From a virus, in IMG/VR virus record IMGVR_UViG_3300028800_000069, positions 18,728 through 82,727 of that record: a stretch of DNA of 64,000 bases, one strand, 5' to 3'. Below the pieces are notes generated by a model. It worked only from the letters and a program-made list of their open reading frames with translations, had not been told where the DNA came from and did no database searches. This document shows, in pieces, positions 4,791 to 49,344 of this stretch; position 1 is the first letter of the stretch; the number at the start of each line of letters is the position of its first letter. Made by a program: the position numbers and the translations under genes.

Positions 4791-4821
4791 GCCCCGCGCC
4801 TTTGGTGGGGCATTTTTTTTT
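4791..4821 (+). terminator. Rho-independent terminator
   Basis: GCCCC at 4791-4795 pairs with GGGGC at 4807-4811 and is followed by nine T at 4813-4821. It lies 17 bp after the last gene of the polymerase operon. Confidence 0.75.
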
Positions 4822-4969
4822 GGCCCAAACGGCCTCTGGCTCGCGCCACGTTTCTGCCGTAAGGCTTCCCGAATTTTTCCAACGGCTCCCGCACAAACCC
4901 GTGGCAGTTTGCATGAAACGTTCCTAAGCGGATCGCCGCGCCGGGGCAGGACGCCCTGCGAATCGCAAT

Positions 4970-4984
4970 GTTACAAGCTGTAAC
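4970..4984. repeat. Palindrome GTTACA-N3-TGTAAC, copy 1
   Basis: Perfect 6-bp arms around AGC. The same arms recur at 5706-5720 and a near copy at 5692-5704, always with a 3-bp centre. Such a repeated palindrome in a non-coding region is a plausible operator for a dimeric regulator. Confidence 0.5.
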
Positions 4985-5069
4985 GTACAGCTACGTATCA
5001 CAATGAGATTTCCCTGCAAATGCAATGGGTTAGCTACGCAGTGGTCCTGCCATCTTGTTGTAAACAAAA

Positions 5070-5220
5070 GGAAAGTTACCGTCCTAGCACATTTCCTAAC
5101 TTTCCCGTACCTCAGGGCCGGGACGTTACCGTACGGGAACACCCTAGCGAGAGCGCCAGGGTCATGTCGGGGACAGGGCCGTGCGTGTGGTACACGCCTC
5201 CGCGTAGTCACCCCCACGCG
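5070..5220 (+). ncRNA. Candidate structured RNA segment
   Basis: Several clean helices occur in about 150 nt: 5070-5077 with 5098-5105 (8 bp), 5102-5110 with 5131-5139 (9 bp, overlapping and so alternative to the first), 5141-5145 with 5158-5162 (5 bp), 5183-5188 with 5192-5197 (6 bp) and 5201-5205 with 5216-5220 (5 bp). No coding signal is evident. Strand is assumed to follow the flanking genes. Confidence 0.4.
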
Positions 5221-5466
5221 CTGGAAAGGGTGGTCCGTTTAGGGGGTATCTCCGGGTCCGTTCTGCCCATAGATTCGCCTGACCTTCGCTGTGTCGATCA
5301 GCACACACCGCTAGGCATTCGCTACTGTCAAGCTGACCACCCCATGGCATTCGCTATGCATTCGCCCTGCGTGCCCTATGCTCAGGTACTCACGGCGTAC
5401 GCCATACGCTTTCCCTTCGCTGCCGCTGCCGCTGGTGTCGAGGCAGGAGAGAGCAGAGCACAGGGT

Positions 5467-5532
5467 ATTCGCCACGCATTCGCTATGTCATTGACAACAC
5501 AGGATCGAGGCATTCGCCACGCATTCGCTATG
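5467..5532. repeat. 21-bp direct repeat, period 45
   Basis: The 21-mer ATTCGCCACGCATTCGCTATG is exact at 5467-5487 and 5512-5532. Shorter relatives (GCATTCGCTATG, GCATTCGCTACTG) lie at 5314 and 5347, and the 13-mer GCATTCGCCACGC recurs inverted at 5993-6005. Could be protein-binding iterons or remnants of duplication. Confidence 0.6.
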
Positions 5533-5691
5533 CAATGGTTGAGCGAGTGGCCAAGCGCATCCGAGGACATTGCTGTGGACAGGGGCGGGGAACCTGATCC
5601 CTAGCGAATACTTAGCGAACGCATTGCGGTGAGCGTAGCTAACGCCTAGGGGAATGAATAAGATAGAGCGAAGGAAAGGCAAAGCTATGTG

Positions 5692-5720
5692 CTACAACCT
5701 GTAGTGTTACACCATGTAAC
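5692..5720. repeat. Palindromes, copies 2 and 3
   Basis: CTACA-ACC-TGTAG at 5692-5704 and GTTACA-CCA-TGTAAC at 5706-5720 sit 1 bp apart. Both share the 3-bp centre and the TGTA half-site with the copy at 4970. The paired arrangement resembles a double operator. Confidence 0.5.
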
Positions 5721-6247
5721 AAAGCAAGGCAAGGGCTGGGCATGTGCTAAGAGAATACCGTTTCAATATGATAGATAGGGTTCTGCCTTGCAATCCTGAA
5801 CTGGCTCGAAGCATGGCAAAGGTACGGCTGGGAACGGTGAAGGAACAATGCTACCGCATGGTATCTGCCTGTCTTCTCCTTCTATCAGTCACTCCGACTC
5901 ATGCGCGAGAATGCGAACGTACAGCGTACGCTTTGTGCTGGTGCTGGTGCTGGTGCATTGCCGATTCGAGAACAGAGAACGGCATAGCAGACGCGTGGCG
6001 AATGCAGGATCGATTCCTAGGCGGTTTCCCTGCCGCTGGCTGCGTGATTTATCCTCCTGTGACAGTCAGAGCCTCCGCGCCGGGTTCGAGCGTAGAATCG
6101 ACGCCTAGCAGGCACATAGATAATGAGAAATGCGTGTAAGTTCTACGCAGTCAGTGATATAGCACCAACGTGCAGAACACATGGCACTAAAGTTGTAATC
6201 AGGCAAACTTTATTTCCTTTGTTTGCAACACTTTGGCACTGAAGTGC

Positions 6248-6298
6248 TATGCTTTCGCACTTTCGTGCTGTTTTCGTACATGCCCCCTGTGCTATGCT
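6248..6298 (+). promoter_or_regulatory. Candidate tandem extended -10 promoters
   Basis: The 10-mer GTGCTATGCT occurs at 6244-6253 and 6289-6298, each giving TG-C-TATGCT, a match to an extended -10. No good -35 is seen. The second would start transcription near 6305, where the RNA-like helices begin. Confidence 0.3.
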
Positions 6299-6304
6299 GG
6301 CTTC

Positions 6305-6860
6305 AGTCGCCGGAGTCCTCCACCGGACGGGCGATCAGCAGAGCCGATAAGTTAAGAGGCCGAGCGAGTCGGAAGTTGGCAGGAGAGCCCCTAGCGGGAC
6401 AGTCCAGCGACAGGCTACGAAGTACAGGGGCGCAGCAGCCCTATATCCCAATCTGCTAGGCAATCGCAGAGCACGCAGCGAAGCGACTGGAAAGCACGCC
6501 GTAGGGTAAGGCAATCGAGGGTAACTTAGAATGCCGAGGCATACGACGGGCGACAAACATCGACTGACCCCAGCCGCACACACGCAGCGCAAGCCGAGTG
6601 ATAGAGACCGAAGCGAATGAATGTAAGGGTGAAGCAACTAGCGTAGCCGTTCTAATCCGTACTGACGGGCAATTAACGGTGATCGAGGCGCTGGACAAAC
6701 CGCACCCTTATATGACGGTGAACCATTCGCAATAGGCAAGCCGAAGCCGTACCAGTCAAGGGAACGAAGCTAAGCACACCGCCATCTCGTGAGAGATCGT
6801 AGGACGCCTAGCGAACAGAGCCTCCCACTGCTACGTTAAACCAACACCTCTGTTAAAGCC
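6305..6860 (+). ncRNA. Candidate large structured non-coding RNA
   Basis: About 550 nt with no plausible gene but many helices: 6307-6311/6330-6334 enclosing 6315-6318/6325-6328; 6387-6392/6426-6431 (6 bp); 6452-6456/6466-6470 (5 bp); 6624-6631/6703-6710 (8 bp) enclosing 6646-6651/6675-6680, which encloses 6657-6660/6665-6668; 6784-6788/6793-6797 closed by a GTGA (GNRA) tetraloop; 6814-6820/6848-6854 (7 bp). The nested helices, tetraloop and purine-rich joins resemble the large ornate phage RNAs (GOLLD or ROOL types). Class assignment is inference; it may be new. It lies immediately before the small-gene cluster. Confidence 0.6.
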
Positions 6861-6933
6861 GCAAAGAGTGAACCTGCAAAGAGTGAATCGGTCTAGCAAA
6901 CCGCGAGTGACCCATGCAGCGAGTGACCCATGC
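6861..6933 (+). repeat. Two short tandem repeats
   Basis: GCAAAGAGTGAA is repeated at 6861-6872 and 6876-6887 (period 15). GCGAGTGACCCATGC is repeated at 6903-6917 and 6919-6933 (period 16). Both share GAGTGA. They lie between the RNA-like region and the first gene of the next operon. Confidence 0.6.
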
Positions 6934-7048
6934 GCACATCTTGAGAAAATGTACAGCACACACGGGGCCTTCACAATCTGAGTCTGATGACGCAGGGTTG
7001 GCTGCAATCGAGTGTGCTGTGCCGTTTAGTCAAGACACGGAGGACACC

Positions 7049-7252
7049 ATGCGTCTAAACAACTTCGCAACGTTGCAACGTGGAGACCGCATCAAAGTGA
7101 AAATGTATCGCGCTGATAGTCAGGTAATGACTGTCACAGGAGAGCCATTCGAGAGTAATACCTTGGTGCCTGTCATAGATGAAGCAGGCAAGCAGTACAG
7201 CGTTTACTTCCGCGACGTTCTCAAGTTCGAGTACCCCAAAGATCAATTCTAA
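7049..7252 (+). CDS. Small hypothetical protein
   Basis: 67 aa. ATG 7049 follows CGGAGGACACC, matching the start context used throughout the next 6 kb; the upstream extension to 6914 crosses tandem repeats and was rejected. Basic, strand-rich protein with no known motif. First gene of the accessory small-gene cluster. Confidence 0.65.
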   Translation: MRLNNFATLQRGDRIKVKMYRADSQVMTVTGEPFESNTLVPVIDEAGKQYSVYFRDVLKFEYPKDQF

Positions 7253-12257: not shown

Positions 12258-12475
12258 GCACTGCATCAAAAGTAGCAGCGCACAAAGCAAAGCACCCAGA
12301 GCTATACTGTTTGCAACATGGATGCCTGTGGCGTATACCTGAAGATGTTTTGTTCTGTCCGCGACATAGGAATCGCCGCAAAGAAGCACCGTACATTGCA
12401 CAAGCACGGCAGATTGCCACGATGTACAACACACTCGCACAGGCTGAAGCGCGGCCTGACTTGGAGGAACAATGA
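12254..12475 (+). CDS. Small zinc-finger-like protein
   Basis: 73 aa, ATGA overlap with upstream gene and GGGAGGGCAGC before the start. Cys and His residues at CLQHGC and FCPRH suggest a zinc site of about 20 residues. Helical C-terminus. Unknown role. Confidence 0.6.
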   Translation: MSTASKVAAHKAKHPELYCLQHGCLWRIPEDVLFCPRHRNRRKEAPYIAQARQIATMYNTLAQAEARPDLEEQ

Positions 12476-13233
12476 CTGAATGGTGGGAAGACTACGACAA
12501 CGACCCAGATTACTTTGATGGGAAACGTGCTCCGGTAGAGGGCGAAGTACATAACGGGTTCCCTGATGAAGAAACAGAAATGGATGTTGACTACCCTGAC
12601 CCCGAAGTTGAGGACGCCGAGAACAACCACGGCCAACCACCAGAGCCAGCCTCCGAATACTACGAGAACATTACACCAAAGCGTTGCAGCGATGCCTGCG
12701 ATGTATGGGTGTATGAGTATGCAGGCTGTTGGTACAATTACAACACAGGCATCGCGCATACTTGTGGCTACGATCCTGAAGTGGAAGACCATCGTAATGA
12801 CTACATGCCAACAATGGAATACGTTCTGGGGAAACCCAAGGAGAACACAATGAACAACGTTAAGGTAATTCAACGCCCCACTCGCGGCATCTCTGCGCAG
12901 TCCCTGAAGATTGGGGAGTTCGCACGCATCTCTGAACCCACTGGCGACTCGCATATCGGAGACATCGTACTCAAGACGCGCACGAACGTGGTGAACATCA
13001 CGAACCCGAATGTGGTGTGGGATTCACCGTTCTCTTCTCCGTTTGTCGAGCGCTTGAACACTGGTGATACATTGCAAATAACCGTTGGCCTGACGACCGA
13101 CTTCGAAACGCGCATCCGTGACATTGCCAAGAACAACAACAAGATTCTGGCAATCAAGGAAGTGCGCGAAGCAACCAACTGGGGATTGAAGGAGTCGAAG
13201 GAGTACGTTGAATCTCTGATGTTGCAGTTCTAA
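12472..13233 (+). CDS. Acidic protein with L7/L12-like C-terminal domain
   Basis: 253 aa. The N-terminal 120 residues are acidic and Tyr/Trp-rich. The C-terminus (about 215-250) reads like the ribosomal L7/L12 C-terminal domain: KILAIKEVREAT then WGLKESKEYVESL. That domain recruits translation factors in ribosomes; in phages its role is unknown. An in-frame ATG at 12850 has a strong ribosome site (AAGGAGAACACA), so a separate 127-aa protein carrying only the C-terminal part is likely made as well. The gene may be a fusion of two former genes that lost an intervening stop. Confidence 0.7.
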   Translation: MTEWWEDYDNDPDYFDGKRAPVEGEVHNGFPDEETEMDVDYPDPEVEDAENNHGQPPEPASEYYENITPKRCSDACDVWVYEYAGCWYNYNTGIAHTCGYDPEVEDHRNDYMPTMEYVLGKPKENTMNNVKVIQRPTRGISAQSLKIGEFARISEPTGDSHIGDIVLKTRTNVVNITNPNVVWDSPFSSPFVERLNTGDTLQITVGLTTDFETRIRDIAKNNNKILAIKEVREATNWGLKESKEYVESLMLQF

Positions 13234-24807: not shown

Positions 24808-25767
24808 ATGCCTGAAGAAACAAATCAACCACAGCAGTTGACCGTGCTTAACCGCGCTCCACAAGAACTGGTCGTGGCACAGCGTGTCAATGCGTTAGCG
24901 AAGTTGTTCCAGTTAAAGCCGAAGACATTGGAGCTAGTCTCTAAGTCCACACGCCAAGAAGGTGCTGAGCCGGGAACGTTCCGCGTTACCTCTACGAATG
25001 AAAAGTTCAAAGAGCTACGCGCTGTGATCCTGTTCGAACCTTTGGAACAGCGCGAGAAGTATCGCAAGGGAGAGTACACGAAGGATTCTAAGGAATGCTT
25101 CTCTCTCGATAATGTACAGCCTCACCCTAAGGCACGTACTCCATTTGCACTGTACTGTGCAAACTGCCCCATGGGAGACAACGTGAACTGGCCGAAGTAT
25201 CGTGAAGCAAAGGCAAAGGGGATTAGTGGAGAAGCACTCTCCGCGTATCTGCCTCCTTGCCGTAAGTTCTGGCACTTGTTCATCGCGTCACGTGAGACGC
25301 AGCGTCCGTACTACTTCAATGTTAAGGGCGGAAGTGTGAAGCCCTTTGAAGATGCTATGCAAAACGTAGCGGACCTGTTCCAAATGATTATCCAAAACAT
25401 GAAAGCAGAGAACAAGACGCATGCCGCAAAGGGCGAGCCGCAAGTTCCTCTTCCAACAAGCATTGGAGACATCATCTGGCACATCAGCTTCACGATGTAC
25501 GCGTGGCAGCAGAACGGTGGTCAGTTTAAGCTGGGCATGAAAGACTTTAAGGTGATGTCTGAAGAAGACCGCAAGGACTTCGGTAAGATCATCGAAGATG
25601 TCAAGGCACGCCGCGAAGCTGGCCAACTGCAAACTCAAGAGGCGAGCGAGGCAGAAGAAGAAGCTGCCGTAGTAAGTGAACCAGCAGCCGGAAGCATTCC
25701 GGTCGCACAAGTCACCTCGGTCACGACCAACGAAGTTGCCGAGAAAAACAAGCAGATTCAAATCTAA
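24808..25767 (+). CDS. Putative ssDNA-binding/recombination protein
   Basis: 319 aa, ATG 24808 after AGGAGAACTAATAAC. The central region has CFSLDNVQPHP, then CANCP and PPC, spaced as in a family of phage proteins often found beside exonucleases and thought to bind single-stranded DNA with a zinc site. The C-terminal 60 residues are acidic and flexible, as in SSB proteins. Position right after the PD-(D/E)XK nuclease agrees. The assignment rests on context and a remembered Cys pattern and could be wrong. Confidence 0.5.
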   Translation: MPEETNQPQQLTVLNRAPQELVVAQRVNALAKLFQLKPKTLELVSKSTRQEGAEPGTFRVTSTNEKFKELRAVILFEPLEQREKYRKGEYTKDSKECFSLDNVQPHPKARTPFALYCANCPMGDNVNWPKYREAKAKGISGEALSAYLPPCRKFWHLFIASRETQRPYYFNVKGGSVKPFEDAMQNVADLFQMIIQNMKAENKTHAAKGEPQVPLPTSIGDIIWHISFTMYAWQQNGGQFKLGMKDFKVMSEEDRKDFGKIIEDVKARREAGQLQTQEASEAEEEAAVVSEPAAGSIPVAQVTSVTTNEVAEKNKQIQI

Positions 25768-25824
25768 GTTGTCGGACTAAAGTCCGGCTGGTGGAGGAAC
25801 GCATGGCATTAGCTGTGCGCTCCC

Positions 25825-25934
25825 CGGAGATCGACTCAGGGTCTCCGAAGTAACAGAGCCTAAAGATGCCTGTACATAGATATGTAACGCACACAGGGCG
25901 CGGTGGAACACTCTGTTACTTTGAAGGCCCTGAG
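25825..25934 (+). ncRNA. Structured leader with possible pseudoknot
   Basis: CGGAGA 25825-25830 pairs with TCTCCG 25842-25847 (6 bp). Its loop carries CTCAGGG 25835-25841, complementary to CCCTGAG 25928-25934 (7 bp). Adjacent AAGTAACAGAG 25848-25858 pairs with CTCTGTTACTT 25911-25921 (11 bp). Hairpin, stacked long helix and loop-to-tail pairing fit a pseudoknotted RNA. It ends 35 nt before the start of the next small gene, so a riboswitch-like or standalone RNA role is possible. Confidence 0.55.
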
Positions 25935-25968: not shown

Positions 25969-26166
25969 ATGCAATCACGCACACCTGAAGGCAAGCACAC
26001 CAAGCGGTTCATCATCTTAGTCGCGGGATCGGACAAGCAATACGTTCGCTCTGGAAACGATGGGCTTAGAGGGTTTTTTGCCACGAAGGAAGAGGCTCAG
26101 GCCGCTCTGGAACCATCCAAGGGTTTGACCAGCACAGGTTTGACCTACAAAGTTCGACAGAAGTAA
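25969..26166 (+). CDS. Small basic protein
   Basis: 65 aa, ATG 25969 after AAAGGAGAACACA. Basic alpha/beta protein with FFATKEEAQAAL near the middle, which resembles small SPOR- or AP2-like folds only superficially. It lies between two structured RNA stretches. Confidence 0.55.
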   Translation: MQSRTPEGKHTKRFIILVAGSDKQYVRSGNDGLRGFFATKEEAQAALEPSKGLTSTGLTYKVRQK

Positions 26167-26212
26167 GTCACCAAGTTACACACGTCAAAGAATGATTGCA
26201 GCATTGCAACAC

Positions 26213-26240
26213 CTCGGTTCGAATCCGAGCAGGTCCACCA
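26213..26240 (+). other. tRNA 3'-end segment, possible attachment site
   Basis: A perfect T-arm (CTCGG-TTCGAAT-CCGAG, 26213-26229), seven acceptor bases (26230-26236), a discriminator A and an encoded CCA (26238-26240). No matching 5' acceptor (ideal GGACCTG) lies within tRNA distance, so this is not a complete tRNA. Phage attP sites often copy the 3' end of a host tRNA gene; a tRNA remnant is the alternative. Confidence 0.45.
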
Positions 26241-26241
26241 A

Positions 26242-26375
26242 GGGACATACATGCTGTGTACAGGCATGACACTCAAGAGCGGCGGCTGGTTAACTCAGAC
26301 CGTGCAGCGTATCAGCGAAGAACTGGACCGCAGAGTGTAAGCTGGGGAACGGCATCCCTACTGTATGTATGCCCC
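26242..26375 (+). ncRNA. Candidate structured RNA after tRNA-like end
   Basis: 26242-26252 pairs with 26365-26375 (11 bp with one A-C mismatch). Inside, 26269-26274 pairs with 26333-26338 (6 bp) and 26279-26282 with 26327-26330 (4 bp). The whole 26167-26639 stretch has no convincing gene; AACGAT/ATCGTT (26476-26490) and CCCCGG/CCGGGG (26560-26577) hairpins follow. Confidence 0.4.
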
Positions 26376-26639
26376 TCGGTGGGCCTGATACTGGTTATCG
26401 ACTGCGATGGACTGAGATCATTTTCGTGTCGGATTCTGCCTCGCCACGTTACGGAGAGTCAAAACCAAAAATGCTAACGATAACATCGTTTCTGCACCCA
26501 TGAAGGCTATGGGCGCTGCTGCTGGTCGCTAAAGCAGTAGTGCAGTCTCACCACGCGGACCCCGGCTCAGTCCGGGGCCACCCGCAGTGGGAAAGTGTGG
26601 GGAGCAATACCAACGTCTGGAGAATTAGAGGAACATTAA

Positions 26640-28025: not shown

Positions 28026-28247
28026 ATGAAAGCACTTGAGGCGAACAGAGAAGCAATCCGAAAGCGGTGTCTCGCTGTGGCTACTAAGTTCCCTGGCCTG
28101 TCCACGGCTGGTTTCTTCGCGGAGGTGTGGTGGGCGTTCTACCCGAGAGTGGATGAGGTAGACATCAAAGCCGAAGCCCTGCGAATGGTGCGTTACGGGG
28201 AACTGGTGTATACGGTCGATTACACGGTTGAACTACCGAAACAGTGA
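28026..28247 (+). CDS. Small hypothetical protein
   Basis: 73 aa, ATG 28026 after AAGGGGGAAT. Two helices then strands (GELVYTVDYTVEL), reminiscent of a small winged-helix layout but without clear signature. Its stop codon lies inside leader repeat copy 2. Confidence 0.55.
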   Translation: MKALEANREAIRKRCLAVATKFPGLSTAGFFAEVWWAFYPRVDEVDIKAEALRMVRYGELVYTVDYTVELPKQ

Positions 28248-29141: not shown

Positions 29142-29875
29142 TGCATGAGCAGAGCATAGTGGGCGAGGCGATTGCTGGGCGTTCTGCACAGGTGCGTAAG
29201 CAGCTTCTACGCATGGCGTTCAGCATGAACATCTCGACTTTCGATATGATCGAACTTTTAGCAGAAGCACAGGAAAACAACTACGCTTCCCAATGGGGAT
29301 TCTCCAGTCTGCTAGACTACGGTGCCGAGGAGCTAGGGCTGAAGAAACGTAAGACTCAGTACCTGACACGTATTGGAAAAGTAACGAAGGCCGTAGGGCT
29401 GACGCGTAGTCAGTACGAACCATCTGGTGTATCGAAACTACGAGAGATATGCGACTCCTTGGACCCAGAGTCAACGTACTGGAATCCTGACACGCACGCC
29501 AATGAGGACATGGCCGAGCACATCGTCCGGCTCATACTAGACTCAGACAAGATGACCGTGGAGCAAATCAAAGAAGAGGTTCTGCGATTGCAAGGCAGAC
29601 TCGGAGCAGACCGCCCAGTCCATCGCACCACAACGTACCCACGCTCTGTGTGGGAGAACGTCATTAAGCCTGCACGAGAACTTGCACGGCATCTGCTAGG
29701 CAGTTCCGGCAGGGATGCAGATGGTAATGCAAAAGAGTATAGTGACGGAGCGTGCGATGAGGTTATATGTGCCGCATTCCTAGCAGATTTGAACAACGCG
29801 GAAGACCCCGGAGATGTAGCTGCTTCACAAGAGACACCACAAGCACCACCAATTCTACCAATGGAGAGTATATGA
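29141..29875 (+). CDS. Hypothetical protein, possible DNA-binding
   Basis: 244 aa. ATG 29141 (MHEQSIVGEA) follows AGGGAGAGTGTG and overlaps the previous stop; an earlier in-frame start at 29114 lies inside that gene. Mostly helical, with a Lys/Arg patch (ELGLKKRKTQYLTRIGK, about 65-80) that could be a helix-turn-helix. The C-terminus is acidic and Pro-rich. Not recognised. Confidence 0.6.
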   Translation: MHEQSIVGEAIAGRSAQVRKQLLRMAFSMNISTFDMIELLAEAQENNYASQWGFSSLLDYGAEELGLKKRKTQYLTRIGKVTKAVGLTRSQYEPSGVSKLREICDSLDPESTYWNPDTHANEDMAEHIVRLILDSDKMTVEQIKEEVLRLQGRLGADRPVHRTTTYPRSVWENVIKPARELARHLLGSSGRDADGNAKEYSDGACDEVICAAFLADLNNAEDPGDVAASQETPQAPPILPMESI

Positions 29876-49273: not shown

Positions 49274-49344
49274 TGGCGCGGACGGAAGGAGTCGAACCTT
49301 CACTCAGGGTTTTGGAGACCCCTCGGCACTCGGTGCGCGTCCGC
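49274..49344 (-). tRNA. tRNA-Trp (CCA anticodon), reduced D-arm
   Basis: Acceptor GCGGACG/CGTCCGC (7 bp), anticodon stem GGGGT/ACCCT with loop CTCCAAA, T-arm GAAGG-TTCGACT-CCTTC, discriminator G73 (correct for bacterial tRNA-Trp) and encoded CCA. The D-arm is only GCAC-CGA-GTGC with a 3-nt loop lacking the usual GG. Total 71 nt with CCA. Its first base follows directly after the CCA of tRNA-His. Confidence 0.8.

Follow-up and report, generated by a model that had tools for sequence, protein, structure and literature searches.

A large U-poor structured RNA in a gene-free region ahead of a phage operon

Few large structured RNAs are known from phages, and their functions are open. The HK022 put RNA is short. 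In T7 early mRNA, RNase III signals consist of a hairpin that has an internal loop and directly precedes the ribosome-binding site of a gene. Put RNA lies at the beginning of early phage transcripts and acts at early genes (PMC9378689). GOLLD and ROOL, both found in phages, are hundreds of nucleotides long, elaborately structured and of unknown function, and ROOL forms an RNA-only oligomeric nanocage (PMC12286853). OLE RNA is reported to be a bacterial RNA, large and ornate, with a length of about 600 nt (PMC9723947).

The RNA reported here, which adds one large phage RNA without an Rfam family, lies in a 64,000-nt part (hereafter the window) of an 82.7-kb virus record. It resembles GOLLD and ROOL in size, elaborate fold and phage origin, but differs from them in lacking an Rfam match, in being U-poor and in its position as an operon leader. 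The lack of an Rfam match also sets it apart from OLE, which is known from Gram-positive extremophiles and anaerobes and has protein partners. It has a promoter-like site on one side and a first gene on the other, and may, like put RNA, stand at the start of an early transcript; it is far longer, and the two are likened by position. Its 3' hairpin may similarly be compared with the T7 RNase III signals, in shape and place alone. Rfam covariance searches at gathering and relaxed (E<=10) thresholds matched no family to the window stretch; searches with the homologues gave no match either, including to GOLLD, ROOL, group I and group II introns and riboswitches. Judged from sequence, the RNA appears to constitute a new RNA family, unlike any catalogued one.

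The features of the locus are listed in Table 1. The upstream operon is the DNA polymerase A operon, which ends at a terminator-like site; a sequence resembling this site also occurs in records L012 and L007. The 2.2 kb between it and position 7049 is without a convincing gene, and the structured RNA occupies the final third. A GGAGG ribosome-binding site (7039-7043) precedes the gene at 7049, which heads a series of small same-strand genes, and gene content suggests that this downstream operon belongs to the early class. From 6305 to 7049, a terminator scan of the + strand recognised no terminator-like site. The host of the phage is probably a member of the Acidobacteriota, since the closest named relatives of its polymerase belong to Tunturiibacter phages.

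Table 1. Features of the RNA locus (positions in the window)
Feature	Position	Strand	Basis or remark
Intrinsic terminator-like site closing the DNA polymerase operon	4791..4820	+	7-pair stem, then T run
Promoter-like site TTTTCG-16-TATGCT, predicted start ~6305	6271..6298	+	read from sequence
U-poor structured RNA body, 14% T	6305..6936	+	composition; consensus fold and covariation with L034
First hairpin in the RNA body	6306..6335	+	unvaried in L034 except one single change
5' hairpin GCC[GATAAGTTAAGA]GGC, conserved 12-nt loop	6343..6360	+	six records
Structured domain 1	6464..6601	+	pairs with compensatory changes
Structured domain 2, contains nested helices	6608..6736	+	compensatory changes 6638-6641/6691-6694, 6649-6654/6674-6677
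Structured domain 3, contains GNRA hairpin 6784-6797	6748..6835	+	compensatory changes in closing helices and hairpin
3' arm, 6860-6862/6932-6934, 6874-6878/6915-6919, 6889-6892/6900-6903	6860..6934	+	alignment A3, pair counts
Long 3' hairpin, 6939-6944/7030-7035 and 6951-6961/7012-7022, proposed processing site	6939..7035	+	
First gene following the RNA (67 aa), without a known family	7049..7252	+	ORF and Pfam scan

Homologues were sought through polymerase relatives in IMG/VR together with a conserved motif, and five related regions were obtained from five virus records: L034, L009, L012, L186 and L008, the last of them partial. The closest, L034, shares 66% identity with the window across 638 aligned positions; the other four can be aligned to the window only in part, and L012 and L186 have GTCAAAGG...AAACC and TAAAACACAG in common. 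Two further regions, in L017 and in the cultured acidobacterial phage Tunturi_4 (L201), show the same layout with no recognisable sequence similarity and are counted as positional analogues rather than proven homologues. In L017, a frame that by eye resembles an HNH endonuclease lies between the RNA and the hairpin.

The common layout runs from a gap after the DNA polymerase operon through a sigma70-type promoter and a U-poor RNA to a long hairpin, counted only where the region is complete, and a ribosome-binding site. Promoter-like sites were placed by eye. The window's own site has a weak -35 element and is absent from the promoter scan's list, its TATGCT lying at 6293-6298, but better matches occupy the same place in L009 (TTGACA-17-TAATAT), L008 (TTGACA-17-TACAGT) and L186 (TTGACA-17-CATACT). 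Across members, the U-poor RNA contains 10-19% T over about 220-770 nt, and the T fraction is lower in the leader (0.10-0.19) than upstream (0.17-0.30) in all seven complete cases. In the window, the low-T composition begins sharply at ~6303; over 556 nt the T content is 13.8%, and only 0.3% of window stretches of equal size are lower. The 5' hairpin follows the consensus GSC[RATAWGTNAAGA]GSC in the window and all five homologues (6/6), its stem being GCC/GGC or GGC/GCC. The RNA holds a constant position ahead of the operon, and its composition, promoter and end hairpins persist, but its sequence changes too fast for similarity searches to detect it. Tunturi_4, which is cultured on a laboratory host (Tunturiibacter empetritectus M8UP27), has a similar region, whose RNA would be expected to begin near L201 22546, so that direct testing is possible.

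Wider searches gave little more. No match was found among public phages by sequence, and no homologue through two neighbouring genes; alignment of a downstream gene yielded no records beyond those already found. When viral contigs were scanned with a loose motif, most of the matches listed were chance hits; a tighter pattern gave six stretches, the one in L187 being due to chance. None of the six matches of a genome scan had a U-poor stretch downstream. A search with model R1 produced no clear further copy, its weak matches in L017 and L201 lying away from their leaders. Tunturi_3 (L202) has a gene-free region, but no U-poor leader was recognised before its first gene. The terms non-coding, intergenic, promoter and RNA-seq are absent from the main text of the article on the Tunturi phages (PMC11924767).

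Selection has preserved the base pairing of the RNA that this stretch encodes. This judgement rests on covariation among homologues, as the window alone could not tell: folded singly, 6305-6860 (556 nt) showed no excess stability over shuffled sequences (MFE z = +0.47), nor did 6303-6945 (z = +1.1). The consensus fold of the window and L034, in contrast, was more stable than every one of the 60 alignments shuffled for comparison (z = -4.3, against -2.0 on the opposite strand). In this alignment, 29 pairs changed on both sides, compared with 13.4±2.9 (at most 20) across 40 alignments that were shuffled and refolded, and with 14.7±2.6 when partners were dealt anew, the latter test being the weaker because the structure was derived from the same alignment. 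The main covariation is that of two sequences (window and L034), and that of the 3' arm is drawn from three. The L012/L008 pair also gave a stable consensus fold (z = -3.2) but does not decide the strand, since the opposite strand scores -2.9. That the helices arose by chance in a composition-biased gap with no conserved function agrees with the single-sequence folding, but this idea is largely refuted by the excess covariation, the strand preference, the repeated layout and the arm-swap test described below.

The original prediction of a large structured phage RNA is supported, with corrections. Its nested helices (6624-6710 enclosing 6646-6680, enclosing 6657-6668) reappear in the consensus as 6621-6628/6706-6713, 6647-6656/6672-6679 and 6657-6660/6665-6668, and its GNRA hairpin, ATCTC[GTGA]GAGAT in the window, reads ACGCT[GTGA]AGCGT in L034, the loop being kept while the stem has changed on both sides. 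The extent given, 6305-6860, was right at its start, which equals the predicted transcription start, and too short at its end, where the 3' arm and the long hairpin follow. The stretch was also correctly described as gene-free: ORFs tested in and around it had no Pfam match, 10 of the 13 indels in the window/L034 alignment are not multiples of three, and stops occur in all six frames (5-17 in the window, 6-10 in L034). Protein coding was rejected on these frame-breaking indels and stops and on the lack of a conserved reading frame. Absence of covariation, or the presence of conserved coding, had been named in advance as a refuting outcome; both were checked, and the new RNA, matched by no Rfam family, survived.

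The 3' arm carries repeated GAGTGAA / CGAGTGACCC internal loops, and GAGTGAAC / CGAGNGACCC internal loops are common to the window, L034 and L009. In L009 the CTGCA/TGCAG pairing of the arm is replaced by CTGTG/CACAG. The tip helix reads CGGT/ACCG or CGCC/GGCG, and in L034 it is a long stem. One helix of the arm is off by one column in the window, and the pair count scores it as unpaired. Model R1 detects the arm only in the three records used.

A long hairpin stands just ahead of the ribosome-binding site in 7/7 records, its foot about 3-16 nt upstream. Across the seven sequences, the hairpin's own arms pair at 100% and swapped arms at 43%, and the longest uninterrupted Watson-Crick stem at the site reaches at least 9 bp in 6/7, compared with 6/400 random windows. 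The sequences themselves vary, with CCAAGAGCATG in L009, CTAAGATCACG in L186 and GTACAGCACAC in the window and L012; as the arms pair fully though their sequences differ widely, pairing is what is kept. A hammerhead core was rejected by eye, the window's CTGATGA not being kept in L012, L009 or L186, and the 5' loop could pair with the hairpin foot, but over too short a length to count. The 15-mer CTGGYAACAGGAAAC occurs in the 3' hairpin of L009 (17762 +) and L186 (2589 -), and elsewhere within a longer identical stretch in L003 (5886 -) and L004 (5376 -).

The simplest reading is that the RNA is primarily a very long structured 5' leader, extending from ~6305 to 7035, because it occupies the interval from a promoter-like site to the first operon gene, in which no terminator was recognised; the original prediction missed this position. 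Our preferred model, to which we assign a probability of roughly 45%, adds cleavage at the hairpin and release of a compact RNA. The RNA would be transcribed early in infection as the 5' leader of a polycistronic transcript, and the long 3' hairpin would act as a cleavage signal comparable to the T7 early-mRNA RNase III sites. Cutting there would leave a short leader on the mRNA and release a compact U-poor RNA of ~630 nt, while U-poor composition and folding may shield the long untranslated stretch from termination and decay. Release is favoured by two analogies: the placement of the 3' hairpin, which is that of T7-type RNase III sites, and the four twister-P5 ribozymes found among the genes downstream in Tunturi_4 (24894-24951, 25817-25878, 28052-28109 and 29634-29694). 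The latter would show, by analogy, that transcript cutting of such a kind occurs in a related phage; in the window, no twister-P5 was detected at the gathering threshold. Against hairpin cleavage, perfect stems of 9-13 bp would be short by the standards of RNase III if the lower stem does not stack.

The main rival, possible but distinctly less probable than this model, is a cis-acting antitermination or elongation leader, in the manner of HK022 put RNA or of boxA in rRNA leaders. It accords with where the RNA lies in every member, after the promoter and before the operon, with the put RNA precedent at early phage genes (PMC9378689), with the protection from termination that a long untranslated leader needs and with the avoidance of intrinsic terminators by U-poor RNA. 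Set against it are the size difference, the window RNA being hundreds of nucleotides long, the frequency of downstream terminator-like sites, which are no commoner than in shuffles, and a by-eye look that established no boxA. While still attached to the mRNA, the RNA might also act by controlling translation.

A more ambitious version of cleavage and release, which we hold only tentatively, would make this a new class of large phage RNA: U-poor, cut from the early transcript, with a fast-changing body between fixed 5' and fixed 3' hairpins, and acting independently during infection of Acidobacteriota. Somewhat less likely still is a large RNA that stands free like GOLLD and ROOL and has a trans-acting function of its own. 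The RNA's size, its elaborate fold, its origin in a phage and its variable body are compatible with this; however, Rfam gave no match, no terminator or own 3' end was seen, and there is no tRNA island of the kind that often, not always, marks GOLLD, the nearest tRNA gene lying at 49274, >40 kb distant. The likeness to GOLLD and ROOL originally proposed therefore finds no support beyond size and phage context, the genomic position also being different. That the 2.2-kb gene-free region is a replication origin and the RNA a primer or by-product is improbable: the region does hold GTTACANNNTGTAAC-type inverted repeats and many CATTCG repeats upstream, but the covariation and the link to the ribosome-binding site point to a function at the RNA level.

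Several minor observations concern the surrounding sequence. The gap upstream of the RNA (window 4811-6300) is an insertion hot spot of endonuclease genes, with Endonuclease_7 family genes at L034 699-1151 and L186 8977-9450. Palindromes of the GTTACANNNTGTAAC type, possibly protein-binding or origin sites, lie upstream of the RNA in the window (5680-5730), L034 (about 390-420) and L012 (17530-17585). At its end, the protein encoded at window 12472-13233 carries a fragment of the ribosomal L7/L12 C-terminal domain. A permuted tmRNA gene with an unusual predicted tag, ANDNIVSAPMKAMGAAAGR, is present at window 26148-26623 (+), and Tunturi_3 carries another (L202 9213-9437, +).
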